From the IMG/VR virus record IMGVR_UViG_3300046001_009672, positions 1 to 39,952 of that record: a DNA stretch of 39,952 bases; one strand, 5' to 3'. Below the pieces are notes generated by a model. That model made no database searches and was not told the DNA's origin. It saw only the letters and a program-made list of their open reading frames with translations. The DNA comes from a virus. How positions within the stretch are numbered: the first letter of the stretch is position 1; each line of letters begins with the position of its first letter. The position numbers were made by a program, and so were the translations under genes. Shown piece after piece: positions 1 to 38,929 of this stretch.

Positions 1-259
1 TAATTTCTTTAACTAGTTTATCGATATTAACAACACAACCTAAACCAATAATTGATTTAATTCCATAAAATACACCAACAGGAACCAAATGAGTTACGAA
101 TTTATTACCATTATGATAAACAGTATGCCCTGCGTTTCCACCCCCATTATATCTAATAACGTGAGTGTATTCTTTACTTTGGGCTAAAAAATGAGCAACT
201 TTACCTTTACCTGTGTCTCCTGCTTGCAAATCTACAACTACATCAGCATATTTTATCAT
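1..259 (-). CDS. purA: Adenylosuccinate synthetase (PurA/PurZ family), N-terminal part, cut by window edge
   Basis: This reading frame starts with ATG at 257-259 and runs out of the window, so only about 86 residues are visible. They match the start of adenylosuccinate synthetase, which joins IMP (or a dGMP analogue in PurZ) to aspartate using GTP. The P-loop-like motif GDTGKGK is at residues 14-20 and NAGHT, with the catalytic-type His45, at 42-46, followed by a THLVP stretch. The DLQ-G-TGKG spelling resembles PurZ proteins of 2-aminoadenine phages, but the Asp that PurZ replaces is still present (Asp15), as in true PurA. The leader is GAAAAATAAGTT, the A-rich start signal used by neighbouring genes. 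Family call is firm; PurA versus PurZ activity is open. Confidence 0.88.
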   Translation of the reverse strand, partial: MIKYADVVVDLQAGDTGKGKVAHFLAQSKEYTHVIRYNGGGNAGHTVYHNGNKFVTHLVPVGVFYGIKSIIGLGCVVNIDKLVKEI

Positions 260-14833: not shown

Positions 14834-15577
14834 TTATATTGTTGATACTCCTGATTTTTGTACTACAACAGTGGTACATTCTTGTGCAAATTTAATTGCT
14901 GATTCTATATTACTTGATTTAGCATATTCTGCTACTAAACCTGCTAAAAATGTATCTCCTGCCCCCGAAACATCTTTTACAGGAACATCTATTGTTGGGT
15001 AATTTTTATTTTGATAATTGCAACCATGTTTACCTCTTGTTTTTATAACTTTACTAAATAAAATAGAACTACTAGATAGTATTTCTTTATTTTGATTATA
15101 TTCAATGCTATTCAATTTTATAAATGTAATATTATCTGCCCAATTCCCCAATAGTTTTTTAGTATCTAAAAAAGTAAGAGGGTGTTGGGTTGAAATATAT
15201 TTAATATCTTCTTCATTTAAAAAACCTTTACAATAATCACTTATTACAATAGCATCATATTGTTTCCAATCTAATAGCGTTAAGTCATGATAAAAATTAA
15301 CATGTTCGCATTTATCATTTTCATCAACCCGTAAGAGCAAATGATTATATTTTGAGCAAACATATCTAATTTTTTTAATTTCAGTATGATTAGTTATAAA
15401 AGTTACTTCTGCTCCCAATGCTTTTAAATTTTCTACTACATTACCCGCCATTCCGGGGTTTGATTTCTCTATTTCGGGGACGATAATAGGGATGGGTGCC
15501 TCAGGGGCAAGCCTATTAACTTCTCCATATTTAAAAATGTCTATGCAGCTATCCCCTATAACTAGTATTTTACTCAT
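14834..15577 (-). CDS. HldE N-domain-like PfkB-family sugar kinase
   Basis: I use the ATG at 15575-15577; a TTG three codons upstream is less likely. The protein has 247 residues. It tracks the kinase domain of HldE/RfaE (D-glycero-beta-D-manno-heptose-7-phosphate kinase): NRLAPEAPIPII near 21-32, AGNVVENLKALGA, SDYCKG near 113-118, and the anion-hole plus catalytic Asp SGAGDTF (204-210). It is about 70 residues shorter than the usual domain, mostly through missing loops. The separate HldE C-domain-like gene at 28894-29283 may complete the pathway to an NDP-heptose. Other sugar phosphates are possible substrates. Eight-nt overlap with the upstream reductase. Confidence 0.82.
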   Translation of the reverse strand: MSKILVIGDSCIDIFKYGEVNRLAPEAPIPIIVPEIEKSNPGMAGNVVENLKALGAEVTFITNHTEIKKIRYVCSKYNHLLLRVDENDKCEHVNFYHDLTLLDWKQYDAIVISDYCKGFLNEEDIKYISTQHPLTFLDTKKLLGNWADNITFIKLNSIEYNQNKEILSSSSILFSKVIKTRGKHGCNYQNKNYPTIDVPVKDVSGAGDTFLAGLVAEYAKSSNIESAIKFAQECTTVVVQKSGVSTI

Positions 15578-16292
15578 ATATTTCAATTTTAATTTGTTTT
15601 TTATCGAAGCCTAGATTTTGTAAATTAGTTTTAGCTTGCTTAACCATTTCTTTCCATCCACATATAAAAAATTCTATGTCTAACCCATTGTAGGAATTAT
15701 TTTTTATTTGATTAAAATAATTATCTATTATAGATTCATATATTAAATGTACATACCCTTGTTTGTTCTCCCAAGGTTCTCTAGATAAAATAATATGATA
15801 TTTTAACTGAGGAAGATCTTTTTCTAATTGAGTCATTTCATTATAATATAATATATTATTTTTGTCTCGTGTCCCAAATACTAAGTGTATATCCCCTGTT
15901 TCAATATTATTTTCTCGTATATGCTCCAGCATAGATTTAAAAGGAGAAATACCAGTTCCGGTACAGATGAAAATATAATTTTTTTTAGTATTTTCTCCCA
16001 TTACCATTATTCCTGAGGGGCCGTCAAAATTAACTTCTGTTCCAATAGGAGATTTCCATAGATAATCAGTGCCCTTCCCTCCAGGCTTTTTAACTATGAT
16101 TAATTCATAAGTGTCTTGAGATGGAGAATTAGCAATTGAATAGTGTCTGATTCTACGAGAAGGTTTTTCATCAATAGGTAAATCTAAGGATATAAATTGT
16201 CCTGGTTGGAAAAAGGATTTTGATTCTGGTTTAAAATAGAAGCGGTTAGTAGTAGCTGTTTCTTTGATTATATTAATTAGTTTTGCTTTCAT
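15570..16292 (-). CDS. Ferredoxin/flavodoxin-NADP reductase-like flavoprotein
   Basis: A 240-residue FNR-type enzyme: FAD-binding RxYS motif (R49-H-Y-S52), a second flavin loop (KPGGKGT), and the NAD(P)-binding TGTGISP at 111-117 with FFICGWKEM near the end. It moves electrons between NAD(P)H and a carrier through FAD. It has no 2Fe-2S domain. In this cluster it might supply electrons to the radical-SAM enzyme through a host flavodoxin or ferredoxin, or to a sugar C3-deoxygenation step. Overlaps the nucleosidase gene by 20 nt. Confidence 0.85.
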   Translation of the reverse strand: MKAKLINIIKETATTNRFYFKPESKSFFQPGQFISLDLPIDEKPSRRIRHYSIANSPSQDTYELIIVKKPGGKGTDYLWKSPIGTEVNFDGPSGIMVMGENTKKNYIFICTGTGISPFKSMLEHIRENNIETGDIHLVFGTRDKNNILYYNEMTQLEKDLPQLKYHIILSREPWENKQGYVHLIYESIIDNYFNQIKNNSYNGLDIEFFICGWKEMVKQAKTNLQNLGFDKKQIKIEIYE

Positions 16293-16839
16293 TTAAAATG
16301 TCTTTTATTTTGTTAAAACCTATTTTACAATTTTCTTTCCAATCACTCGCATTTCCATCATCACTAACCCATTTGTATGAACTAAATTTTATATTAAAAC
16401 GTTTACAAACCTTAGCAATAGCAAAACATTCCATATCAAAGACAGAACATTTATTTATCATTTCCAAATACTTCTCAGAGTATTTTGATTTTTGTTTTTC
16501 ATCATAGAAATAATCTGTAGTAAAACAAGTATTATTATTCTTTGAATCTAGTATTATCTGATAGCTTGATGGTTCAAAGGGAGTATGACCATATTCTGCT
16601 ATGGGAGTAGGATCAATATCTTGGAATGTTTGACCTATTTTGATTATTTCTCCTGCCTTATGTTTTAATGAACCGCAAGACCCTATATTAATTATTTCTT
16701 TATAACCCTGGTTAAATGCAGTGTAAGCAGCCATCGATGCATTAATTTTACCCACACCACTAAAGATAACAGGATTTCCTAGTATCATACCCTGTGTCTC
16801 TACTTCATCAGGAACAGCTACTATAAAAACTTTATTCAT
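16273..16839 (-). CDS. MTA/SAH nucleosidase-like enzyme (PNP/UDP family)
   Basis: A 188-residue protein of the nucleoside phosphorylase family. GVGKINASMAAY, NIGSCGSL and the ribose/catalytic motif FDMECFAIA (E in DME) appear in order, then VSDDGN with the catalytic Asp position of methylthioadenosine/S-adenosylhomocysteine nucleosidases. It would cleave MTA, SAH or 5-prime-deoxyadenosine to adenine. It is shorter than E. coli MTAN (about 230). The adjacent adenine phosphoribosyltransferase (8-nt overlap) would take up the released adenine, which supports this substrate class. Confidence 0.82.
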   Translation of the reverse strand: MNKVFIVAVPDEVETQGMILGNPVIFSGVGKINASMAAYTAFNQGYKEIINIGSCGSLKHKAGEIIKIGQTFQDIDPTPIAEYGHTPFEPSSYQIILDSKNNNTCFTTDYFYDEKQKSKYSEKYLEMINKCSVFDMECFAIAKVCKRFNIKFSSYKWVSDDGNASDWKENCKIGFNKIKDILNESKTN

Positions 16840-17317
16840 ATTTAATTAAACTTTTAACGTTATTAGGTTTATGCAAAAATGCTAAATCAATGAGTACCAC
16901 TTTATCTATTACTTGATACCCCGCTTTTACACATAACTGCTCAACAGCATCCATTGTCCCCCCAGTAGCATATACATCATCTACTATTACAACTTTACCA
17001 TTGCCTTCCTGGATTTCTAGAGTGTCATTCCCATATTCTAGATCATATTTAATAGAAATGCAAGGAGGGGGTAATTTGCCTTTTTTGCGGACTATTTTTA
17101 AACCATTTTGGGTCTTACTAGCCATAGCAGAAGCGAATATAAATCCCCTAGAATCTATACCTATAAAATAATCTGGTTTATGGACTAGATTAAGCATCTT
17201 AATTATAGCTCTATCAAATATTTCTCCATTAGCTAGTAAAGGTTGTATATCCTTAAATATAATTCCTGGTTTAGGAAAATCAGGTACATCGTTAATATAA
17301 TTTTTAAAATCAAGCAT
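16832..17317 (-). CDS. apt: Adenine phosphoribosyltransferase
   Basis: A 161-residue enzyme close to bacterial APRT in length and order: the N-terminal DVPDFPKPGIIFKDI at 10-24, FIGIDSRGFIFASA, and the PRPP-binding VDDVYATGGT at 112-121. It turns adenine plus PRPP into AMP. I chose the ATG at 17315-17317 over a GTG one codon upstream. Eight-nt overlap with the upstream RmlC-like gene and 8 nt with the nucleosidase gene, so the two adenine enzymes are probably translated together. Confidence 0.92.
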   Translation of the reverse strand: MLDFKNYINDVPDFPKPGIIFKDIQPLLANGEIFDRAIIKMLNLVHKPDYFIGIDSRGFIFASAMASKTQNGLKIVRKKGKLPPPCISIKYDLEYGNDTLEIQEGNGKVVIVDDVYATGGTMDAVEQLCVKAGYQVIDKVVLIDLAFLHKPNNVKSLIKYE

Positions 17318-17786
17318 CACGTGAAGATAATATAGGGTTTTGGGTTGGCCAATATATTTTTATTTTTGGATCATTCCATTTTAAGGAAAACTGATCTTTA
17401 ACATCTGGGTATTCTCCAGGGTATGACCATTTGTAAAAAAATGTAGCTTCATCACTTAGAACTAGATGGCCATTGGCAAACATAGGGGGTATTAAAATTG
17501 ATTTTTTATTTTTTGATGATAAAATTATAGAATCCCATTTTAAATAATTAGGAGATTCAGGTTTATTATCTACTACTACTAAATAAACTTCACCAGCTAA
17601 ACAGGATATATGTTTCCATGATTTAAAATCACCATGTAATCCTCTTAGAACATGTTTTCGAGAAATAGAAACTTTATCATGATTAAAAGTTAAATCACTA
17701 TCTTCTTGTTTAAATAGGGTATAAAGTTCTCCTCTATAGTCCTCAAATGAATCCGGTTGAAAGATCTTTACTTCAGGAAATATCAT
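17310..17786 (-). CDS. RmlC-like dTDP-sugar 3,5-epimerase
   Basis: A 158-residue cupin of the RmlC family: ISRKHVLRGLHGDFKSWKHI holds the RGLH histidine and the Lys/His that contact substrate, with a later IPPMFANGHLVLSDEATF and WNDP near 135. RmlC epimerises C3 and/or C5 of 4-keto-6-deoxy NDP-sugars. Some residues of the second active-site loop are unusual, so single-carbon epimerisation is possible. It follows the ColD-like gene with a 4-nt overlap (ATGA), implying the same pathway. Confidence 0.85.
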   Translation of the reverse strand: MIFPEVKIFQPDSFEDYRGELYTLFKQEDSDLTFNHDKVSISRKHVLRGLHGDFKSWKHISCLAGEVYLVVVDNKPESPNYLKWDSIILSSKNKKSILIPPMFANGHLVLSDEATFFYKWSYPGEYPDVKDQFSLKWNDPKIKIYWPTQNPILSSRDA

Positions 17787-18955
17787 AAATTGTTTAATAT
17801 ATTAATCAATGTATCTATTTTTTCTTGGGGTAATGAAGGATAGTTTCCAATGTACCAACCAAAATTATGAACATGTTCTATATTAGGATAATTATTAAAA
17901 TCATAATTAAATTGTTTCATAAAAGGTTGTCTCATTTGATTTCCTCCTCCTGATAAGCCTCTTCTAAATTCTATTCCTTCTTTTTTTAGGGTAGCTTCTA
18001 AATGGTTTCTTTTTTCAAATGAGGATTCTTTTAGTATTACTATAAAAGCATAGTTACATTGACCTTTTAAATTTATATCTGTAATATATTTTTTAGAATC
18101 TAATTTAGACATAAAATAATTAAAATTAGATATTCTTTGCTTATTATTTTTATCTAATCGAGGCAATTGATTTAATCCAATCACTGCATTAATCTCTGTA
18201 CTCCTAAAATTATGAGCAGGTCTAATAAATATAAAATCAGAATTTAAATCGGGATTAGCATCAATAATTTCTTGTTTCATTTCATTATTGGTCATTTCTC
18301 TCATCATACCATGAGAACGTAAAGCTCTACATATTTGGTAGAATTTTTCATCATTAGTACAAATCATCCCTCCTTCAATAGTGGACATATGGTGAGCAAA
18401 ATAAAAACTAAAATTAGAAGCAAAACCAAAATTACCTACTTTAATATCATTGAATGTAGTTCCATGTGATTCACAAACATCTTCAATAAGTAAAATATTT
18501 TTTTCTTTACACAATTGAAGAAGATCCTCAGTTAAACCATTAATTCCTAAAACATGAGTTAAAAATATAGCTCGTGTATCAGGAGTAATTGCTTTTTTTA
18601 ATTTATCTAAATCAAAAGACAGATTATTTAGATTTATATCTACAAATACTGGGCTAAATCCGGCGAACATGACAGAAGATACATCTGAGATCCAGGTTAA
18701 TGGGGGGATAATAATTTCTCCATCACCATATAGATGTTTTAGGGCTAGCATAGTCAGCTCATTAGCTGAAGCCCCAGAATTGACCATTAAATTATATTTA
18801 GTTCCTAACCATTCTCCCCACTTATTTTCAAATTCAACTACTTTAGGGCCATTAGTAAGTTTAGGGATTTGATCTTGATTTAAGAAATCAACTATAGAAT
18901 TAACATCATCCCTAGTGATGTTATCATCCATTAAAGGTAAGTAATAATTGTTCAT
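17783..18955 (-). CDS. ColD-like PLP enzyme: sugar 3-dehydratase type with catalytic Lys replaced by His
   Basis: A 390-residue DegT/DnrJ/EryC1-fold enzyme. The usual Schiff-base lysine of SFxxxK is His188 in FSFYFAHHMSTIEGG (182-196), the change that defines GDP-4-keto-6-deoxymannose 3-dehydratase (ColD) and RfbH/AscC. No Cys-rich 2Fe-2S insert as in RfbH is seen; the region after RSHGMM continues to HNFRSTEINAVIG with few cysteines. ColD removes the C3 hydroxyl of a 4-keto-6-deoxy sugar. Length matches ColD (388). Donor nucleotide cannot be told. It sits among split E1-like subunits and an RmlC-like epimerase. Confidence 0.87.
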   Translation of the reverse strand: MNNYYLPLMDDNITRDDVNSIVDFLNQDQIPKLTNGPKVVEFENKWGEWLGTKYNLMVNSGASANELTMLALKHLYGDGEIIIPPLTWISDVSSVMFAGFSPVFVDINLNNLSFDLDKLKKAITPDTRAIFLTHVLGINGLTEDLLQLCKEKNILLIEDVCESHGTTFNDIKVGNFGFASNFSFYFAHHMSTIEGGMICTNDEKFYQICRALRSHGMMREMTNNEMKQEIIDANPDLNSDFIFIRPAHNFRSTEINAVIGLNQLPRLDKNNKQRISNFNYFMSKLDSKKYITDINLKGQCNYAFIVILKESSFEKRNHLEATLKKEGIEFRRGLSGGGNQMRQPFMKQFNYDFNNYPNIEHVHNFGWYIGNYPSLPQEKIDTLINILNNL

Positions 18956-18967
18956 ATTTATTTTTAA

Positions 18968-19504
18968 TTATTTTTCTCCGTAATAATCACCCCATTCTAC
19001 TAATATAGTTGGTCGGTTATCTGTTCTTTCATAAGCATATTGGAATGCTTCAAATATTTGGTAAGGTTCATCTAAACGAATAATATCAACCCAATCACAC
19101 ATAGCTTTAAAACCAGCAGTAAAATCAGCAATATGCTGGTGTTGGGGATGAAGAGGACGTTGTGAACCAATTGATGTTCTTATAATTACTTTAGGAGTAT
19201 AACCACCACTAGACATAATTTTTATTTTATCTAAGTGATTTATTACCTGATTGGCGGCTAATAGTAAAAAATTCCAGCGTGGATATATTGAAATGGGTAC
19301 AGTTCCATTCATAGCCATTCCTATAGTAATTCCCATCTGCATGTCTTCATTAACAGGCATTTCAAGCATTTTGCTTCTATCTACATCTTTAAGAGTATTT
19401 GTAATAGCTGTACCAGCATATTCAACTGCTTGTCCTAAAAATAATGTATTAGGCTTTTCATTAAGCCAATCCATTGAGCGTTTTAATTCATCAAAATATT
19501 TCAT
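18968..19504 (-). CDS. Thiamine-diphosphate enzyme, E1-beta-like (pyrimidine-binding) subunit
   Basis: A 178-residue protein matching the pyrimidine-binding domain of E1-beta/transketolase: LFLGQAVEYAGTA, EMPVNEDMQMGITIGMAMNG (Glu53 in the position that activates the thiamine ring), SIYPRWNFLL and the SQRPLHPQHQ loop. It lacks the C-terminal transketolase-C domain of full-length E1-beta (about 325 residues). It pairs with the E1-alpha-like gene 2 nt upstream. In sugar clusters such split subunits add a two-carbon branch (avilamycin AviB1/AviB2), so a branched sugar is a plausible product. Confidence 0.84.
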   Translation of the reverse strand: MKYFDELKRSMDWLNEKPNTLFLGQAVEYAGTAITNTLKDVDRSKMLEMPVNEDMQMGITIGMAMNGTVPISIYPRWNFLLLAANQVINHLDKIKIMSSGGYTPKVIIRTSIGSQRPLHPQHQHIADFTAGFKAMCDWVDIIRLDEPYQIFEAFQYAYERTDNRPTILVEWGDYYGEK

Positions 19505-19506
19505 AA

Positions 19507-20112
19507 TTAAAATTGAATTCGTTTCCCCGCACCCGCGTGTGGGTATTTAGTTTGATATTTATAATAGATAATTTTACGAGTTTCTTTAGCAAAATAAAGT
19601 TCATCAGTATTCCAAACTTTATATGTTTCTGTGCATACAGATTTACCATTATCTTCAATTATATAAGTAATAGGTAAATCATGATTAATAGAATATTTCC
19701 AATTCTCAAAGAAAGTACCAGTTTCAGATGTCATTTCTCCAACAAAACACCAAACATGGTTACTACCTCCTTTGCGTTTAATATCTAAAGCAACACCTGT
19801 TGCTATAGGAATATTACCTGTTACTATAGCAGAGGAATAAATATTATATTCAGGATAACATAAAGTAATAGATTTACCATCTAAAATATCTTGCTTTAAC
19901 TGCTCAGGAGGAACCCCTTTAAGTAAACATTGATAATGAGATCTCCAAGTACAAAAAATCCAATCTTCATCTTTTATATTTTGAAAGATTTGAATTATTT
20001 GTTCTTCATTTCCATCATATAAATGAATGGGAGCCTTAATCATAGCATTATTAAAACATTCCGCTATGTCTGTTTCAAAATCTATTAATTGATTTTTGTT
20101 TAATTTATTCAT
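19507..20112 (-). CDS. Thiamine-diphosphate enzyme, E1-alpha-like (pyrophosphate-binding) subunit
   Basis: A 201-residue protein related to E1-alpha. It keeps CTWRSHYQCLLKG (54-66, like YRDHG...G), PIATGVALDIKRKG and the cofactor motif region FVGEMTSETGTFFENW...LPITYIIEDNG (123-156). The usual GDG is GEM here, so the Mg-binding Asp is Glu126, with the Asn of the motif kept (Asn155). It is shorter than normal E1-alpha (about 330). Reaction probably involves a keto-acid donor such as pyruvate, but that is inferred from family only. Overlaps the upstream glycosyltransferase by 8 nt. Confidence 0.82.
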   Translation of the reverse strand: MNKLNKNQLIDFETDIAECFNNAMIKAPIHLYDGNEEQIIQIFQNIKDEDWIFCTWRSHYQCLLKGVPPEQLKQDILDGKSITLCYPEYNIYSSAIVTGNIPIATGVALDIKRKGGSNHVWCFVGEMTSETGTFFENWKYSINHDLPITYIIEDNGKSVCTETYKVWNTDELYFAKETRKIIYYKYQTKYPHAGAGKRIQF

Positions 20113-20920
20113 TGATTAAAAATTTTTTTCTTTTTTCCCACATTTTTGTAAAATTATCATCTACATCCCAAAAAGAATATAAACTACCATCTATATTAAT
20201 TGTAGCATTTTTTTTATAACTTTTTTCTACTCGTTTAGATATATCATCTTGTTCTATTCTTTTATTATGTACGCTATAATGTATGATTTTTATAATATCA
20301 ATAGTAGATATTATATAAAATTTATTTGAATTTAATATAAGTTCATATAAAATAGTATCACCCCCCCAAGTTGGTATTTCTCTAGGATAAAATTCATCTA
20401 AGTCTTTACAATAATTAGAAGATAATATAGGGAAACAACAACTTAAATCTCTATGCGAGTTAATGGATTCACCATTTTCATTAAAATGAGTATCATCATT
20501 TATTCTGAAATAGTAATATTTTTTATTGGTTTCTATATTAGAAAATATATCAGGTAATGCTTCCATTATTGCTGAATAAAAATATCCATCCCAGTTTTCG
20601 TTAGCAATAGCACAATCATTGCCTAATATCCAAGTAAAATAAGAATCGGAAGCTAATTTTAATCCTAAATCATAATAATCATTAGGTAAATCTAATTCCT
20701 CTTTTTGTTTTCTACTAACAAACTTAAAATCATAAGTTATTTGAGAAGATATTTCATGAAATAAATCTAATGTTTGTTTATCATCGTGATCACAAATAGA
20801 AATAACTTCAATCCAATCTTTATTATAGGTTTTTTCTTCTATTGATAGAAGTAATTTTTTAACTAAATCATATCTACCTCGAGATGGAAATATAATAGTA
20901 ATTAATTTTTCTTTATTCAT
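20105..20920 (-). CDS. GT-A-fold glycosyltransferase-like protein
   Basis: A 271-residue protein starting TIIFPSRGRYDLVKKLLLSI, as in GT2-type transferases, with a nucleotide-pocket-like ICDHDD and a GND (WILGNDCA) near 110-120 plus RINDDTHF near 153-160. It belongs with the PSR-start transferase at 12348. No membrane segment. Donor unknown. It is the first gene of a unit with its own promoter just upstream and leads into the E1-like pair. Confidence 0.8.
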   Translation of the reverse strand: MNKEKLITIIFPSRGRYDLVKKLLLSIEEKTYNKDWIEVISICDHDDKQTLDLFHEISSQITYDFKFVSRKQKEELDLPNDYYDLGLKLASDSYFTWILGNDCAIANENWDGYFYSAIMEALPDIFSNIETNKKYYYFRINDDTHFNENGESINSHRDLSCCFPILSSNYCKDLDEFYPREIPTWGGDTILYELILNSNKFYIISTIDIIKIIHYSVHNKRIEQDDISKRVEKSYKKNATINIDGSLYSFWDVDDNFTKMWEKRKKFLINE

Positions 20921-20958: not shown

Positions 20959-21813
20959 CTAATAAAAAGCTCTAAATAAATATTCGTTATGAGGAGTATT
21001 AGATATATTAGAAAATATATTTTCTTTAATAGATTTAAAATTATTATTTCCATCATAATAATGCATAGCATTAGTATATAATCCATATCTCCACCAACAC
21101 ACTAACCTTGATTTTTGTTGAAGGGGCTGGCCACGATGTATAGCAAAGGTATCCGCTAAAATAGCAGTACCTGCTTTCCCCGTTATAGTTATTGATTTGT
21201 CTGATTCCGATCCGTCTTGAGTTCCTGGGTAAAACACATGAGGACCTGTTGTTTCATCAACATCTGTTAAATATATAAATAGTGCTAAAAATCTAAAATC
21301 ATCATGATCTCTATGATTGTTTTGAGTTCCGTATGTGTTACCTTTATATATGTGCCACCATGAATTTAATGAATATAGCGTTGGAAAGCACCCTAAATAT
21401 GCTTGAGATAAAGATAAAATATAAGGATCAATTATTTTATTTAAAATTATTGGTTCATTTAATAAAGCCGTTGGAGGATAACTTAATGTATTAAAATTAT
21501 ACTCAGGAGTTAATTTTCTTAAAACTTGATCACTATATTTAGGTACATGAGTATTGTACCCTTCCTGCCCAATCAATTTATTTTTAATTTTATCAACTTC
21601 ATTTTGAGATAAAAAATTATCAAATATTAGATACCCATCTGTTTTTAATTTTATTTCATCTTCTTTCTTATGAATTTGTTTTACAGGAGAAATATAACTA
21701 TTTACTATTTCACTAATTATAGGAGGGTACTTATTTCTAAGATCTACATTTAAGTAGGTATGAATATTAATATTGGGTATTAAAGAAGAAATTTGGGGTT
21801 CTGGGGTGTTCAT
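20959..21813 (-). CDS. Phytanoyl-CoA dioxygenase (PhyH)-like Fe(II)/2-oxoglutarate oxygenase
   Basis: A 284-residue protein. NNHRDHDDF gives an HxD pair (His167, Asp169), with a distal His226-Arg227 in AIHRGQP, the iron and 2-oxoglutarate ligand set. The strand LALFIYLTDVDETTGPHVFYPGT is typical of PhyH. Such enzymes hydroxylate or modify small molecules, including sugars and lipids. The substrate here is unknown; placement between a methyltransferase and a glycosyltransferase suggests a sugar or acceptor. A-rich leader before ATG. Confidence 0.85.
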   Translation of the reverse strand: MNTPEPQISSLIPNINIHTYLNVDLRNKYPPIISEIVNSYISPVKQIHKKEDEIKLKTDGYLIFDNFLSQNEVDKIKNKLIGQEGYNTHVPKYSDQVLRKLTPEYNFNTLSYPPTALLNEPIILNKIIDPYILSLSQAYLGCFPTLYSLNSWWHIYKGNTYGTQNNHRDHDDFRFLALFIYLTDVDETTGPHVFYPGTQDGSESDKSITITGKAGTAILADTFAIHRGQPLQQKSRLVCWWRYGLYTNAMHYYDGNNNFKSIKENIFSNISNTPHNEYLFRAFY

Positions 21814-21840: not shown

Positions 21841-22449
21841 TTAAACTATTTGTTTTACCCAAATTGGAATTTTTTGACCATCAGGATCAGGAAATACATT
21901 GATATCAAAACCAAAATGATCATAAACTGCTTTTATAACTCCATAGTGTTTACCATTAACATAATCCTGTTCTAACCATTCTGGGTTGATGTTATTTATT
22001 AGATTTATATCTTCTAGATCATGACCGCATAATAATCCTCCTGGTTTCATTTTAGGTAAGCATAATTCAATATCTTTGTAAACACTAGAGTATCTATGAT
22101 CAGCATCTATAAAACATATATCTAAACTATTATCAGGTATTTCAGGAATCATATCCCATGATTTACCTCTTTTAATAGTTGTTATATCAAGATAAGGCTG
22201 GATGTTATTTATAAAATTATTATAGATGCTACCAGCTTTAGTTTCATTATAGGCATGTGGTCCAGTTACATTTTCATTACCGTTAAACCAATCTATAGCA
22301 TATAAATGTCCATTATTTTGTTTAATTATATCAATATAAGCTTTAGTAGTTGAACCATCATATGTTCCTATTTCAGCAATCACCATGCCTTCACTTTGAT
22401 TAGCTTTTACTACATCTACAAAAGCTAAAATTGGTTTCATTATTCCCAT
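21841..22449 (-). CDS. Class I SAM-dependent methyltransferase
   Basis: A 202-residue protein with the SAM-binding VIAEIGTYDGSTTKAYI (about 23-39), an acidic second strand YAIDWFNG and CFIDADHRYSSVYKDIEL (Asp after strand 4), then GGLLCGHDLEDIN. This fits the Methyltransf_24/cephalosporin-hydroxylase-like group found in glycan clusters. The methyl acceptor is unknown. ATG at 22447-22449 with an in-frame ATG three codons later as an alternative start. It follows the radical-SAM gene. Confidence 0.85.
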   Translation of the reverse strand: MGIMKPILAFVDVVKANQSEGMVIAEIGTYDGSTTKAYIDIIKQNNGHLYAIDWFNGNENVTGPHAYNETKAGSIYNNFINNIQPYLDITTIKRGKSWDMIPEIPDNSLDICFIDADHRYSSVYKDIELCLPKMKPGGLLCGHDLEDINLINNINPEWLEQDYVNGKHYGVIKAVYDHFGFDINVFPDPDGQKIPIWVKQIV

Positions 22450-22458
22450 AACTCTTTA

Positions 22459-23997
22459 TTATTTTACTATTTTTCTTTTTAATTTCACTTTTAACATATT
22501 TAATATATTGTCTATAGCTACTTGTCCAAATTTATTTTTAACTTTTTCTAAAAATGGAGGATAAGAATGATATTCATCGAATGCTTTATCTCTAAACTCT
22601 AATACTTCAGCCGCAGATAATGTTTCTGTAGGAAGAGGTAAGGTTTCATACCCATGAAATGAATACCCTTCATAAGTGTCAGGTAAAGGAATACCTTTTT
22701 CAACAGCATCTTTATATAATTTACTACCAGGTAAAGCCATTGCGGCATATGCATTCCACCCAAATGTACATAATTCTTTTGAAAATTCTAGGGTTTTTTG
22801 CATTGACTCTTTAGTATCGCCTGGTAGGCCAAAAATATAATTTGCCATTACTTCAATATCAGCCTCATGTACTTGTTTAATAACTTGGGTAATATCTACA
22901 TCTTCAAATTTGCCTTTAGATACTTCTAACCTTACAGTTTTATCAGCACTTTCAATACCTAAAGCCAGCCATTTAATGCCTGCATCTCTGATTAATTGAA
23001 GTAAATCGGGACGACGAACGGTGTCTACTCGAGAGTATGCCCACATTCTTAAAAATTTTCCATATCCTTTATCTCGGAGCATTTCACAAAGAGGAACATA
23101 ATATTTTCTATTTAAGAGGAACATTTCATCAGTTATTTTAATAGTATAAACTCCTAATTTAACTAACTTATCAAATTCTTTTATAATAAATTCAGGAGAC
23201 CAAAATCTCATTAAGCTATAATGTCCTGCTACTCCTATTTCTTCTTCATCATTCCTGTTTAAAATATTAATCATACAGAAATCACATCCGAACTGACACC
23301 CTAATGAGGTTTGGATGGCAGCATATGGTGATCTTTTATCTTGATCATATTCAGCGTGCCACATAGGTGCTCTGTATAGATCAAGAGGTTTTTCTTTATA
23401 TGGAAGTAAATCCCAAGCGTACCCTGGTAAGTCTATATCCATCCTATCACTTGGTACTACCTTTTCAGGAGGATTTATTTTAGGGGTACCATTCTGCCTC
23501 CATACTAAACCCTTAATATGGCCTAAGTTATTAATATCAATTTTATCTTCTGCTAATACATTTAATAATGAATATACTCCTTCATTAGTAAAACCAAAAT
23601 CAATTGAAGGTTCATCATTTAATGCTTTGATAGGCACAGCTTGTATATATGATCCAATATAAGAAATAGGGATATCAATATTTGCAGATTTAATAGCATT
23701 TGAAATATACACTGCTCCACTCATATTAACTGTTCCTGCATTGACATTTTGTCCATACACAACAAAACAGATTAAACGAGGATTTAAATTATTTATTCGG
23801 TCAATAATCTCAGTACTTTTTAATTGTTCTGCATTAGCATCAATTAAACCAACATTATATCCTTTAGAACGACACGCTTCAGATAATAATAATGCCCAAG
23901 TAGGAGGTTCAATAGCAGCATAATCATTCGCTAAATTTTGATAGATACCATCCGCATTGCCCGGACATATAAATAGTATATCTAGTTTATTATTCAT
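22459..23997 (-). CDS. Cobalamin-binding-domain radical SAM protein
   Basis: A 512-residue protein. Residues 1-160 look like a B12-binding-type Rossmann domain (DILFICPGN, YNVGLIDANAEQ, IRNLNP-like ICFVVYGQ), without the DxHxxG base-off motif. The radical SAM core has CxxxCxxC at Cys234, Cys238 and Cys241 (LGCQFGCDFCMINIL). This class methylates or rearranges small molecules and sugars. Its by-products (5-prime-deoxyadenosine, SAH) are targets of the nucleosidase at 16273, and the flavoprotein at 15570 could help reduce its cluster. Substrate unknown. Confidence 0.88.
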   Translation of the reverse strand: MNNKLDILFICPGNADGIYQNLANDYAAIEPPTWALLLSEACRSKGYNVGLIDANAEQLKSTEIIDRINNLNPRLICFVVYGQNVNAGTVNMSGAVYISNAIKSANIDIPISYIGSYIQAVPIKALNDEPSIDFGFTNEGVYSLLNVLAEDKIDINNLGHIKGLVWRQNGTPKINPPEKVVPSDRMDIDLPGYAWDLLPYKEKPLDLYRAPMWHAEYDQDKRSPYAAIQTSLGCQFGCDFCMINILNRNDEEEIGVAGHYSLMRFWSPEFIIKEFDKLVKLGVYTIKITDEMFLLNRKYYVPLCEMLRDKGYGKFLRMWAYSRVDTVRRPDLLQLIRDAGIKWLALGIESADKTVRLEVSKGKFEDVDITQVIKQVHEADIEVMANYIFGLPGDTKESMQKTLEFSKELCTFGWNAYAAMALPGSKLYKDAVEKGIPLPDTYEGYSFHGYETLPLPTETLSAAEVLEFRDKAFDEYHSYPPFLEKVKNKFGQVAIDNILNMLKVKLKRKIVK

Positions 23998-23998
23998 A

Positions 23999-24937
23999 TT
24001 ACAGATTTGTAAAATCTTTATTTTTAAATTTATTTATAAGTTGATACCCAGCAATTAACTCCTGGATGCCATCTTCTAGATCAAACTCAGGTTTCCAACC
24101 CTTAGATTCTAATTTAGCATTTGAAACCATATAATTTCTTTGGTCAAAATCTTGTTTAAAATTATTTTCGACAATAACTAAATCAGGAACAAATTGTTTA
24201 ATTTTATTTGCTAATTCTAATTTAGTACAATTTGCTGAACTTAGCCCTACATTAAACGCATTATTATTACATTTTTCATAATTTTCAATCATAAATAAAA
24301 AGGTGTTTGCAATATCTCGAACGTGGATATAATTACGAATGTAGTGGGATTCAAATAATACTAAATATCCGTCTGTAACAGCTTTATACACAAAATCTTG
24401 TACTAGTAAATCCATCCTCATTCTATAAGACATTCCAAACACAGTTGCTAAACGTAAAGCAATCCCGTTACCTGAATCTAGTATTGCCTTTTCAGCATTG
24501 CACTTTGTTTCAGCGTATAATGAAAGTGGTTTAAATGGGGATTCTTCAGTAATAATTTCTGTTGACGAGCCGTACTGACTATTAGTGTTTGGGATCAGAA
24601 TCATTTGATTTTTACTAGCCCATTGGGTAATATTTTTTACTTGCTCATAATTTACTTTTATAGTCAATTCAGGCTGAGCCTTGCAAGCAGGCATTCCTAC
24701 GATAGCTGCTAACGGGATTATAATATCGTGTTGTTCTACTAATGATTTAAGCAAAGTTTCATTAGTAACATCTCCTAAAACAAATTTAAAATTTTTATTA
24801 TAAGTAAAAGGTGCTACTGATATTTGCTTATATGCTAGATTATCTAAAACAGTTACTTGATATTTTTTATTTAGTAATACTTCTGTTAAAATGGAGCCTA
24901 AGTAACCCGCCCCGCCGGTGATTAAAACTTTTTTCAT
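23999..24937 (-). CDS. NAD-dependent epimerase/dehydratase (extended SDR)
   Basis: A 312-residue SDR with the GGAGYLGS nucleotide loop (8-15), LGDVTNE, and the YAETK active-site Tyr/Lys near 140-145. The region IPNTNSQYG, where sugar 4,6-dehydratases have T-D-E, reads N-S-Q, so an epimerase, reductase or other NDP-sugar reaction is more likely. Late motifs (NAFNVG, GWKPEFDLEDGI) fit the family. Start is supported by the promoter at 24964-24995. It probably makes or reshapes the NDP-sugar used by this cluster. Confidence 0.88.
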   Translation of the reverse strand: MKKVLITGGAGYLGSILTEVLLNKKYQVTVLDNLAYKQISVAPFTYNKNFKFVLGDVTNETLLKSLVEQHDIIIPLAAIVGMPACKAQPELTIKVNYEQVKNITQWASKNQMILIPNTNSQYGSSTEIITEESPFKPLSLYAETKCNAEKAILDSGNGIALRLATVFGMSYRMRMDLLVQDFVYKAVTDGYLVLFESHYIRNYIHVRDIANTFLFMIENYEKCNNNAFNVGLSSANCTKLELANKIKQFVPDLVIVENNFKQDFDQRNYMVSNAKLESKGWKPEFDLEDGIQELIAGYQLINKFKNKDFTNL

Positions 24938-27463: not shown

Positions 27464-28497
27464 ATCATGATATTATCATCAAAATTTCTGTTTAATAAGC
27501 CTTTTTTTATTTGTTTAGCAACTTTAACACAAGTATTTATTTTGCCTGAAAAGATTGTTATAAAATTAGGATTAGTAGGGTAGGTAATAATTTTAGAGAG
27601 TCGTTCATCATCTTTTGTAATAGGGATAGCTCTAGATGTTCTCCAATAATCTATAAACTTAACATCTTTAATAAAAGGAAAATATCTAGAAGAATCTTGC
27701 TTAATCATTTCTAAATTATAAGAAATATCTTCTAGAGGGGCTAAATTAATTTCTTCTGTTTCTTTTAAAACTGAGTATTTAGCGTGGTATAAAAGAAATT
27801 GATTGGGGGTATTTCCTTTAGGCATGATGCTACAGAAGGGCCCATCCATAACTGTTAAACCAATTTTAGGATGATTATATTCAAATATAGGGATAATAAC
27901 ATCTTGTAATTTGAACTTTAAAGAAGGTACCCCCATTATATCATTTATGTCGTTTATTCCGGCATAAGAACAATTAATGATAAAATCATAATTCAAATGT
28001 TCTTTAGAAAATTGAGTATTTAATTTTAATTTGACTTGAGAATTATTTAATTTATTTTTTATAATGTTTTTTAATATTTCCCAATCAAAAATAGGTTCTT
28101 CTACTTTAAATGAATTTTCAATTAATAATGGGTTTAATATATCTGAAGCAGGGTATTCTGGATGGTAATCAATGCCCACTTTATTACAAAAATTCTTATA
28201 TTCAACTGAGTTGATTTGGCTTTGTTCTGCTGATACTGCATAGTAATTTGGGAAATTACTTATAATGGATTCTTTATACATCATTAAAAATGAGATTAAT
28301 CCATCTAAACTTTGAGAAGCAGTTCTTATACTTCTAGGGTAATGATATCCGTAATGTATTCTATTATGATTACATTTTGAAGCCCCATCCATTATATCTG
28401 GGTTTTTTTCTATCAGTGTAATATCTAGATTATATTTGGATAATTCTAAAGAGATAGAGCATCCAAAAATTCCCCCTCCTATTACTAGTATTTTCAT
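27460..28497 (-). CDS. FAD-dependent oxidoreductase (DAO family)
   Basis: A 345-residue protein from ATG at 28495-28497 (a TTG two codons upstream was not used). It starts with the Rossmann FAD motif KILVIGGGIFGCSISLEL and IEKN, followed by a substrate-side SKCNHNRIHYGYHYPRS. DAO-family enzymes oxidise amino or hydroxy groups, for example glycerol-3-phosphate or amino sugars. The end (TIFSGKINTCVKVAKQI) has the usual second FAD strand. Its ATG overlaps the upstream TAA. Substrate unknown. Confidence 0.85.
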   Translation of the reverse strand: MKILVIGGGIFGCSISLELSKYNLDITLIEKNPDIMDGASKCNHNRIHYGYHYPRSIRTASQSLDGLISFLMMYKESIISNFPNYYAVSAEQSQINSVEYKNFCNKVGIDYHPEYPASDILNPLLIENSFKVEEPIFDWEILKNIIKNKLNNSQVKLKLNTQFSKEHLNYDFIINCSYAGINDINDIMGVPSLKFKLQDVIIPIFEYNHPKIGLTVMDGPFCSIMPKGNTPNQFLLYHAKYSVLKETEEINLAPLEDISYNLEMIKQDSSRYFPFIKDVKFIDYWRTSRAIPITKDDERLSKIITYPTNPNFITIFSGKINTCVKVAKQIKKGLLNRNFDDNIMI

Positions 28498-28901
28498 TAC
28501 CAACTAATTTCCCAATCTTTAAATTCAGCTGCTAGACAATCGATTTTATAATCTTTTCTGCCGCCTACTACTTCTTGTATTTTATTTTTAGCTACATTAC
28601 GAATACCATTCAAACCATGTGTTAATTCTAAATTATTACCATCTTTAATACCTTTTCTATAATTTGACTCATTGTGCCATATATGAAGGTTCATTTGTGA
28701 TAATACAACTATAGCACGAATGGTCTCAGCAGTTACTTTACTATCTTGTTCATCTAATAAAAGCTGGATATCATGGGTTATTTCGGCTATTTCTTTAGCA
28801 TATTCTTCTTTGTGTTCAGTAATAAATACTTCTTTGAGTTGAACTATTGATAGTCTATCAACTAGTTCACTTAACGTAGGTAAATATTTTCTTTTATTCA
28901 T
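28497..28901 (-). CDS. Unrecognised 134-aa helical protein, possibly DUF4254-related
   Basis: An all-helical, soluble protein beginning TLSELVDRLSIVQLKEVFIT, with a NLHIWHNESNYRKG stretch near 72-85. The LVDRLSI...LK pattern reminds me of the DUF4254 family of surface-glycan clusters, but from memory only. It lies between the FAD oxidase and the nucleotidyltransferase and overlaps the latter by 8 nt. Function unknown. Confidence 0.72.
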   Translation of the reverse strand: MNKRKYLPTLSELVDRLSIVQLKEVFITEHKEEYAKEIAEITHDIQLLLDEQDSKVTAETIRAIVVLSQMNLHIWHNESNYRKGIKDGNNLELTHGLNGIRNVAKNKIQEVVGGRKDYKIDCLAAEFKDWEISW

Positions 28902-35158: not shown

Positions 35159-35356
35159 TTAATTTATTTGTTCATATTCAATTGTTTGTACTTCTCGACA
35201 GAAATATAACATACCATCTTTTCTAAATGTGTGAGAACATAACCAAAGATCCTTTAATTCATTAACCATTTCACTAGGTAATGTTTTTGATTCTTTTATT
35301 GTTCGGTATAATTGATAGTAATTATTGTTTGCTTCTATCAGTTGTCCTAGATTCAT
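35159..35356 (-). CDS. Unrecognised 65-aa protein
   Basis: Start chosen at ATG 35354-35356, giving a 35-nt overlap with the thioesterase gene; a longer frame opens at 35404 but would overlap by 83 nt. The protein is helical with cysteines at LWLCSHTF and LYFCREV. No motif recognised. Confidence 0.55.
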   Translation of the reverse strand: MNLGQLIEANNNYYQLYRTIKESKTLPSEMVNELKDLWLCSHTFRKDGMLYFCREVQTIEYEQIN

Positions 35357-35735
35357 TAAATTTTCGTTTAACTTGTTCTGAAATTGGTATAGGTCCGCCT
35401 TCATCGTCTATTCTAACGAAGGTCATAGATGTAGTTAATATAATGGCCTCTTCTTCTTTAAATACATTATATGATCTAACTTCAACATCAAATGTAGCTG
35501 ATGTGTTTCCTATATCGTTTAATTCACAATATATTTTAAGTAATGAACCTTCTTTGGCTGATTTTTTAAAGATACATTTATCAATAGCTATTGTAACCAT
35601 ATTTTTAGAGTGGCATACTTCCATAGCATAAGCAGCTACAGCAGCATCTACCCAAGATAATAGTTTACCTCCAAATAGGTTTCCGTGAAAACCTAAATCC
35701 ATTTTTTTAATCGGGTGTGTAGCTAATAGTTTCAT
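35322..35735 (-). CDS. Acyl-CoA thioesterase, hotdog fold (YciA/BACH-like)
   Basis: A 137-residue hotdog protein. It keeps the N-terminal FHGNLFGGKLLSWVDAAVAA, with the HGN/Asp30 region of YciA-type acyl-CoA hydrolases, and a following TIAIDKCIFK strand. It would release CoA from acyl-CoA. In a phage it may change host lipid metabolism or recover CoA. Neighbours give no pathway clue. Its start lies one base past the stop of the 82-residue gene. Confidence 0.87.
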   Translation of the reverse strand: MKLLATHPIKKMDLGFHGNLFGGKLLSWVDAAVAAYAMEVCHSKNMVTIAIDKCIFKKSAKEGSLLKIYCELNDIGNTSATFDVEVRSYNVFKEEEAIILTTSMTFVRIDDEGGPIPISEQVKRKFNESRTTDRSKQ

Positions 35736-35994: not shown

Positions 35995-37926
<1,932 letters not shown>

Positions 37927-38274: not shown

Positions 38275-38305
38275 GAATATACTAAAGATCTAATAAATTT
38301 CCAAG
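38275..38305 (-). promoter_or_regulatory. Promoter for the chaperonin unit
   Basis: CTTGG (38301-38305), 17 bases, AGTATATTC (38275-38283) on the minus strand. The site overlaps the last codons of the FkbM gene. It is about 50 bases from the ATG at 38223, leaving a long leader. Confidence 0.6.
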
Positions 38306-38929
38306 TTTTCTTGAATTTATAAAAAGAAAATCAGATTGATTTAAACGATGGTTCCAATAAAAAAGAGATCCTACTTCGTAAATATAAAAATCTAAATTAT
38401 ATAAATACGATATAATTTCACTAGCCAAAGGAGCCCCAGTATTATATTTAAGAACGGATAATTCTAATTGCAAAATATCACAATCTAAAATAGTTTTTAA
38501 TCCTCCTTTAATTATATCTAACTCAGCACCTTGAACATCTATTTTTATATAATCAAATTTTTTATTAAGTGAATCTAAAGTCTTAATAGGAAGAACATAT
38601 TCTGCACAGTTTTTATACCATACCGTATTTTCTTTATATATAGAACCTCCACTACATACATTATTATGTTCAGGAATATAAAAAGTTGTTTCTCCATCTT
38701 GCTTTCCTAAAAGAGTAATTATAGAATTAGGGTTTACTTCAAATAATTGAGATTTACAATTTGGATTCCCTTCAATGCTTAAAATATTACTGTCTGGGAA
38801 GATATTTTTAAATTCTTGGTAGAATTGGCCTATATTAGCCCCCACATCTAATATTTCTTTAGGGTATATATTTAAATCTTTAAAAGATTTAATCCATCTT
38901 TCTGAAATGAAGTTATAGTGATTATGCAT
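38282..38929 (-). CDS. FkbM-type methyltransferase
   Basis: A 215-residue SAM-dependent methyltransferase: ILDVGANIGQFYQEFK near 21-36, LSIEGNPNCKSQLF, and YIKIDVQGAELDIIKGG near 125-141. The family O-methylates sugars and other compounds. It is separate from the glycan cluster, lying between the clamp and groE. It may modify the same surface structure or be independent. Two nt from the clamp gene. Confidence 0.87.
   Translation of the reverse strand: MHNHYNFISERWIKSFKDLNIYPKEILDVGANIGQFYQEFKNIFPDSNILSIEGNPNCKSQLFEVNPNSIITLLGKQDGETTFYIPEHNNVCSGGSIYKENTVWYKNCAEYVLPIKTLDSLNKKFDYIKIDVQGAELDIIKGGLKTILDCDILQLELSVLKYNTGAPLASEIISYLYNLDFYIYEVGSLFYWNHRLNQSDFLFINSRKLGNLLDL

Follow-up and report, generated by a model that had tools for sequence, protein, structure and literature searches.

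In this phage, a nucleosidase gene that overlaps a gene for adenine phosphoribosyltransferase (APRT) belongs to a glycan operon and is linked to the radical-SAM sugar module of that operon. This linkage is well supported by gene counts on viral contigs, and the best reading of the counts is that the nucleosidase is the linked part of the pair while APRT is optional. We favor, with moderate confidence and on the strength of sequences and structure models, the idea that the pair would be a salvage step for the spent SAM of the radical-SAM enzyme in the phage nucleotide-sugar module, with APRT as an optional adenine salvage. The enzymes are of known kinds; what appears new, judged by the literature searched, is that a phage carries APRT and the nucleosidase as a pair within a glycan operon with a radical SAM.

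The stretch that we analyzed (the window) is a linear IMG/VR virus record of 39,952 bases with a GC content of about 30%, in which the minus strand holds nearly all long reading frames and the region 5930-33489 carries many glycosyltransferases and nucleotide-sugar enzymes. In the order of transcription, the core genes, all on the minus strand, encode an SDR nucleotide-sugar epimerase/dehydratase (23999-24937; matches to galE, dTDP_gluc_dehyt and models of this kind, none reaching its cut-off), a 512-aa radical-SAM enzyme (22459-23997; PF04055, 65.1 bits, cut-off 29.5), a class I methyltransferase (Methyltransf_24, 21841-22449; PF13578, 68.2 bits), PhyH (20959-21813), the product of a further gene (20105-20920) and the E1-alpha-like (19507-20112; PF00676, 48.6 bits) and E1-beta/transketolase-like (18968-19504; PF02779, 41.7 bits) halves of a TPP enzyme. 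These are followed by a DegT-family protein of the ColD/E1 type (17783-18955; PF01041, 241.3 bits), an RmlC-like epimerase (17310-17786; PF00908, 134.3 bits), APRT (16832-17317; 161 aa from an ATG, with a GTG at 17320 as the alternative start), a 188-aa nucleosidase (16273-16839), a 240-aa FAD/NAD reductase (15570-16292; PF00970 and PF00175) and, as context, a PfkB/HldA-like sugar kinase (14834-15586; PF00294, 64.7 bits). RmlC and APRT overlap by 8 nt when counted from the ATG of APRT, APRT and the nucleosidase by 8 nt (16832-16839), and the nucleosidase and the reductase by 20 nt. The initial annotation had described an 8-nt overlap between a nucleosidase and APRT in a cluster with a radical-SAM gene, an FkbM domain and a class I methyltransferase; the sequence and Pfam matches bear this out in every part. 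A second FkbM methyltransferase gene (38282-38929) was missing from that list.

In its AlphaFold2 model (24 sequences in the alignment, pLDDT 91.6), the nucleosidase has the fold of MTA/SAH nucleosidases (MTAN) together with their conserved residues. It matches PF01048 (PNP_UDP_1) with 50.7 bits against a cut-off of 25.1, its model aligns with MTAN 5cce (Z 20.3, rmsd 2.5, 180 aligned), and the Foldseek matches listed (1.5e-13) consist of MTA/SAH nucleosidases and the futalosine hydrolase of H. pylori. Glu12, Met136, Glu137 and Asp160 are invariant in 24 nucleosidase sequences from all three phage context groups described below, and Glu137 and Asp160 align to MTAN 3bl6. We take Glu12, Met136-Glu137 and Asp160 to be the counterparts of E. 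coli Glu12, Met173-Glu174 and Asp197, of which Glu12, Glu174 and Asp197 are catalytic. As the protein scores below the curated cut-offs of the NCBIfam MTAN families (NF005522, 59.9 against 161; NF004168, 58.1 against 129; NF004079, 39.3 against 169; TIGR01704, 36.1 against 73.8), we describe it as likely to work like an MTAN and do not class it as a family member. It matched no family in PHROGs. Its substrates, its reaction and its benefit to the phage are predicted here from sequence and model.

The assignment of APRT draws on NF002636 (179.4 bits, cut-off 125) and Pribosyltran (52.7, cut-off 26.3), while its score for TIGR01090 (153.5) falls short of 185.85. The PRPP-binding motif VVIVDDVYATGGTM is invariant in 10 sequences, and the best solved relatives are APRT chains (E 5e-37). 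Scanning viral contigs with the single APRT sequence gave no relative, whereas a scan with an alignment did find relatives. The start codon of the nucleosidase sits within the end of the APRT gene. Of 27 loci looked at, two lacked the nucleosidase, and 19 of the 25 pairs in the others share the identical overlap of 8 nt, so the overlap is not due to chance. Four of these 19 pairs lie on contigs without PF04055, and most simply the overlapping pair would be the older unit. APRT is probably an optional partner that came with the nucleosidase as an older two-gene phage cassette; it appears dispensable because the L007, L020, L021, L022 and L023 contigs do without it.

The radical-SAM enzyme combines PF04055 with the CxxxCxxC pattern in the form CQFGCDFC, and the three cysteines are invariant in 9 sequences. 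Its score for a B12-binding domain (28.9 bits) lies below the cut-off of 32.1, and its structure model is poor (pLDDT 61.8). The nearest solved chain is AprD4 (6fd2, E 8e-12), with a score for the AprD4 diol dehydratase family of 61.2 against a cut-off of 500, and the nearest NCBIfam model is HpnJ, far below its cut-off. Among solved structures, the DegT protein is best matched by ColD (2gms, E 7e-61), and the alignment pairs the catalytic His. Its motif FAHHMST is invariant in 10 sequences, and the His aligns to His in 2gms and to Lys in 2r0t, which is the replacement of the PLP-binding Schiff-base Lys that characterizes sugar 3-dehydratases of the ColD/E1 type; for RfbH (E1, NF011936) it scores 192 against a cut-off of 423. 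Because it has a His where aminotransferases have a Lys, this protein probably takes off a 3-hydroxyl group. Taken together, 17783-20112 and 22459-24937 may encode an uncharacterised deoxysugar pathway common to phages and bacteria. Related phages seem to swap whole sugar modules: near-identical flanks (GroEL, two glycosyltransferases and a 134-aa gene) enclose a radical-SAM module with the nucleosidase in L137, L149 and L169 and a different TPP/DegT module with neither in L153 and L166.

Searching from the nucleosidase, we found a radical SAM on all 21 of 21 viral contigs, most of which carry homologous clusters. A search from APRT gave a radical SAM on 19 of 26 contigs; the seven without PF04055 measure about 4, 6, 18, 31, 57, 57 and 120 kb, and those of 18 and 31 kb bear the same nucleosidase. 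In all, pairs were seen on contigs lacking PF04055 of 120, 57, 57, 31 and 18 kb and on two short contigs. Starting from the radical SAM, PF01048 was present on 34 of 80 contigs (the best 80 of 172 relatives). For a matched control we used 80 contigs (the best 80 of 561) that carry a homologue of the island gene at 28497-28901 and counted PF04055 at E 1e-3 or better. PF01048 occurred on 8 of the 25 control contigs with PF04055 and on none of the 55 without it (Fisher, 3.7e-5), and among contigs of at least 50 kb it occurred on 12 of the 24 from the radical-SAM set but on 0 of the 19 control contigs without PF04055 (p 3e-4); these p-values are merely a guide, as the counts include near-copies and homologous clusters and are not independent. 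Seven of the eight control contigs with PF01048 have a radical SAM of the window type, while on the remaining one (G149) the nucleosidase match is weak (29.2 bits) and the radical-SAM matches are of other types. PF01048 was lacking on the remaining 17 of the 25 control contigs with PF04055. The 134-aa product of the island gene (28497-28901, minus strand), which has 561 relatives in IMG/VR viral contigs and marks phage glycan islands, matched none of the 50,697 named phage records, and no Pfam family reached its cut-off.

Among the 46 phage loci in which the radical SAM is flanked by 8 kb or more on each side, 12 have both genes, nine the nucleosidase only, three APRT only and 22 neither. Six of the last group (L092, L093, L095, L104, L123 and L124) carry PF01048 elsewhere on the contig, in four cases with an APRT match near it, one of these being partial and below cut-off. 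The loci were also grouped by the identity of their radical SAM to that of the window. At 70% identity or more (25 loci), the nucleosidase is present in 19, APRT alone in three and neither in three (L063, L083 and L124); the nucleosidase is present in 2 of 13 loci at 60-70% and in 0 of 8 below 60%. Homologues of FkbM-GT, TPP, X26 and APRT likewise track the nucleosidase, as expected for one conserved cluster, and gene-by-gene counts thus assign the linkage to a single SAM enzyme in part only.

We classified the phage loci according to their context. Type I is that of the window, mostly with APRT-nucleosidase 3′ of DegT-RmlC (L002-L014, L017-L023). In type II, a shorter nucleosidase of 169 aa lies directly upstream of SDR-radical SAM, or of the radical SAM alone in L091; no APRT match was found on any of its 12 contigs (L065, L067-L070, L072, L073, L082, L088, L091, L116 and L117), one of which measures 174 kb. 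Type III comprises APRT-nucleosidase pairs for which the stretch fetched contains no radical SAM of the window type (L038, L042-L048, L050 and the complete phage C48C1). In an unrooted tree of 35 of the 38 distinct nucleosidase sequences, a branch with 99/96 support separates type II from the rest, and type I clusters with the type III pairs. The simplest reading is that nucleosidases reached the SDR-radical-SAM neighborhood at least twice. On the radical-SAM tree, which covers 101 of 155 rows, was built by a quick method and has many open forks and one very long branch, the presence of the nucleosidase needs at least six changes. On the short contig L024, a partial nucleosidase match lies two genes from a different radical SAM with a twitch domain (313.9 bits, cut-off 170).

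The picture in bacteria was different. We scanned bacterial genomes for loci of the same radical SAM and took the best 80 of 127, many of them from Pelagibacteraceae; the set includes some short records and perhaps a few viral contigs that were binned with bacteria. Within the stretches fetched, a DegT homologue was present in 64 of the 80 loci, a TPP-alpha homologue in 47 and APRT in three, but the nucleosidase in none. PF01048 was found somewhere in 40 of the 46 of these bacterial genomes that were searched whole. This suggests that the bacterial pathway leaves disposal to a gene elsewhere, while the phage brings its own. TPP-alpha, TPP-beta, DegT, radical SAM and SDR also recur jointly in bacterial loci that resemble surface-glycan loci, with combinations of TPP and DegT in 38 to 47 of the 80.

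Radical-SAM enzymes begin by splitting SAM into methionine and a 5′-deoxyadenosyl radical. According to the salvage reading, the phage enzyme would turn SAM into 5′-deoxyadenosine, as well as SAH if it methylates too, and the 5′-deoxyadenosine would inhibit it. The nucleosidase would split this by-product into adenine and a 5-deoxysugar, allowing the module to keep turning, and APRT would then combine the adenine with PRPP to give AMP. It has been described that 5′-deoxyadenosine inhibits radical-SAM enzymes and that a nucleosidase can relieve this inhibition, as has the shortage of biotin and lipoate that follows build-up of the compound in E. coli (PMC8102628, PMC6079011).

Alternatively, the pair may be a general purine-salvage cassette of phages, which would convert adenine from any 5′-deoxynucleoside of the infected cell to AMP for nucleotide supply and would be in the sugar operon by hitch-hiking. 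Such a role, which we judge unlikely, agrees with the pairs on contigs without PF04055 (G004 with 120 kb, G006, G007, G008 and G009), with the pair of C48C1, which comes after ribonucleotide reductase genes, and with the PurA fragment within the window. It is harder to reconcile with the complete absence of PF01048 from the 55 control contigs without PF04055 and with a second, APRT-less clade of nucleosidases beside the same radical-SAM genes; a nucleosidase that is commonly without APRT fits poorly to adenine harvest as the main aim. A counter-defence reading, in which APRT would rescue AMP from ATP-nucleosidase effectors of the host, was set aside, as no evidence for it was found. The initial annotation had treated the pair as a unit, and here its tie to SAM chemistry is weaker than claimed, given how often APRT is missing and that 7 of 26 contigs in the search from APRT have no radical SAM. 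The expectation that the pair would not occur just as often without SAM-using enzymes held, yet the pair is found without radical SAM.

The same annotation had linked the pair to SAM-using enzymes in general, which raises the question of the methyltransferases. MTAN-fold enzymes act on SAH and the cluster has methyltransferase domains (Methyltransf_24 and FkbM), so that the nucleosidase might clear SAH from these and not the waste of the radical SAM. The window's FkbM-GT homologue tracks the nucleosidase (14 of 15 loci with it, 7 of 31 without), and in L045, on a contig without PF04055, the gene immediately ahead of the pair is an FkbM gene. The Methyltransf_24 homologue, in contrast, does not track it (4 of 21 loci with the nucleosidase against 3 of 25 without), and in 17 control loci, homologues of FkbM or the methyltransferase occur with both the radical SAM and the nucleosidase absent. 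The proposed link thus stands for the radical-SAM sugar module and is weaker for methyltransferases, failing for the class I enzyme, and we consider it improbable that the nucleosidase clears methyltransferase SAH and not radical-SAM waste. Still less probable, in our view, is that the nucleosidase carries out a chemical step of the pathway, in which the radical SAM would adenosylate an intermediate and the nucleosidase would take the adenine off, by analogy with HpnH/HpnG or MqnE/MqnB. The top fold matches include the futalosine hydrolase of H. pylori, and there are weak matches to HpnG and futalosine hydrolase models, both of which miss their NCBIfam cut-offs (HpnG, 23.3 against 187.1; fut_nucase, 29.1 against 124.7). 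The bacterial contrast argues against the nucleosidase as an obligate step of the sugar pathway, as do the close phage loci L063 and L083, which have no nucleosidase on the whole contig, although a cell enzyme encoded elsewhere could serve instead.

The reductase next to the nucleosidase may extend the salvage reading. Its homologues occur in seven records (19 locus rows, the window included) and in all seven lie directly after the nucleosidase, with gaps of -20 to +194 nt; no 2Fe-2S domain was matched in the window protein. One of them, on the 276-kb phage contig L050, is 35% identical; no window-type radical SAM was found in the 20-kb stretch there, and five PF04055 matches lie outside it. 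In L046, on a contig without a PF04055 match, the third gene after the nucleosidase encodes a flavodoxin (85.2 bits). Flavodoxin and its reductase reduce the clusters of radical-SAM enzymes in E. coli. The sequence matches suggest that the phage reductase may supply electrons to the radical-SAM cluster. A bolder, tentative idea is that these genes form a mobile support kit for radical-SAM enzymes, in which the nucleosidase would remove 5′-deoxyadenosine, APRT would recycle adenine and the flavin reductase, with flavodoxin in at least one phage contig, would provide electrons, so that a product-inhibited sugar pathway from bacteria could run fast during infection without the upkeep enzymes of the host.

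Choi-Rhee and Cronan reportedly found in 2005 that the bacterial Pfs/MtnN clears 5′-deoxyadenosine for biotin synthase. The phage protein resembles Pfs/MtnN in its MTAN fold and in the proposed removal of an inhibitory radical-SAM by-product. It differs in that Pfs/MtnN has a housekeeping gene that is not located with the radical-SAM gene, while the phage gene is short, scores below MTAN cut-offs, lies in the operon and is often fused in translation with APRT. The nearest case in the literature searched, which omits most subscription journals and in which no phage APRT-nucleosidase module in a radical-SAM glycan operon was found, is the Lake Baikal phage VP_139, which likewise has MTAN, radical-SAM and methyltransferase genes as well as MetK, read as a boost of the SAM cycle in phages of methylotrophs; unlike the window, it has no APRT or glycan operon named in the part of the account used here (PMC7678222). 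The gene clusters for 5-deoxyribose salvage (DHAP shunt) also dispose of radical-SAM waste, but as described in the section consulted they recycle the sugar half, whereas APRT would recycle the adenine half (PMC6079011). No aldolase family was found among the 40 window proteins scanned with Pfam. A looser parallel is found on a Brachyspira plasmid, where genes for a radical SAM, an epimerase and RfbC form a block (PMC4267127); no Brachyspira record was among the 15 matches listed of 101 plasmid matches.

Among the 50,697 named phage records, only phage C48C1 (OQ984149, Kyanoviridae) matched both proteins. Its APRT and nucleosidase genes, annotated as hypothetical, have the same order as in the window and overlap by 11 nt. 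Unlike in the window, they lie beside ribonucleotide reductase, and the one radical-SAM match (a 328-aa protein) is about 22 kb off and belongs to another family. The gene annotated as NAD synthetase after this pair (L015, 15446-15940) belongs to the SegE GIY-YIG endonuclease family by Pfam (119.7 bits) and is probably misannotated, and we therefore dropped a reading of NAD repair. A further candidate, Acinetobacter phage MD-2021a (CAKLQH020000009, L016; pfs_2), has its gene among 5S rRNA, ileS, ribF and other bacterial genes; as the stretch looks like host chromosome, we did not take it as a phage precedent.

Auxiliary genes of phages are usually read as pathway boosters, while here the phage seems to bring a gene that disposes of the waste from a single enzyme in its glycan pathway. 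The pair offers a direct test of whether the clearing of a by-product limits radical-SAM flux in infected cells, and short MTAN-fold genes may help to locate radical-SAM modules in phage genomes that lack annotation.

A PurA-like gene at the left end of the window had been taken as a sign that the phage may supply its own adenylate. The gene is there, represented by 86 N-terminal residues of PurA at the edge of the window (2-259, minus strand; PF00709, 80.2 bits), about 16 kb from the pair, and the link to adenylate supply is a guess. The solved chains that match this fragment best carry the name adenylosuccinate synthetase (E 1e-16), compared with 8e-11 for 6fm1, which we take to be a phage PurZ, and 4e-6 for the PurZ of S-2L (7odx); over its 86 aa, the fragment thus appears nearer to ordinary PurA than to PurZ (2-aminoadenine). 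A metallophosphoesterase gene (553-1272) adjoins it. At the other end, along with the second FkbM gene, the phage encodes a 4HBT thioesterase (35322-35735) and a GroEL (35995-37647) that is 60.6% identical to the GroEL of Flavobacterium phage immuto.
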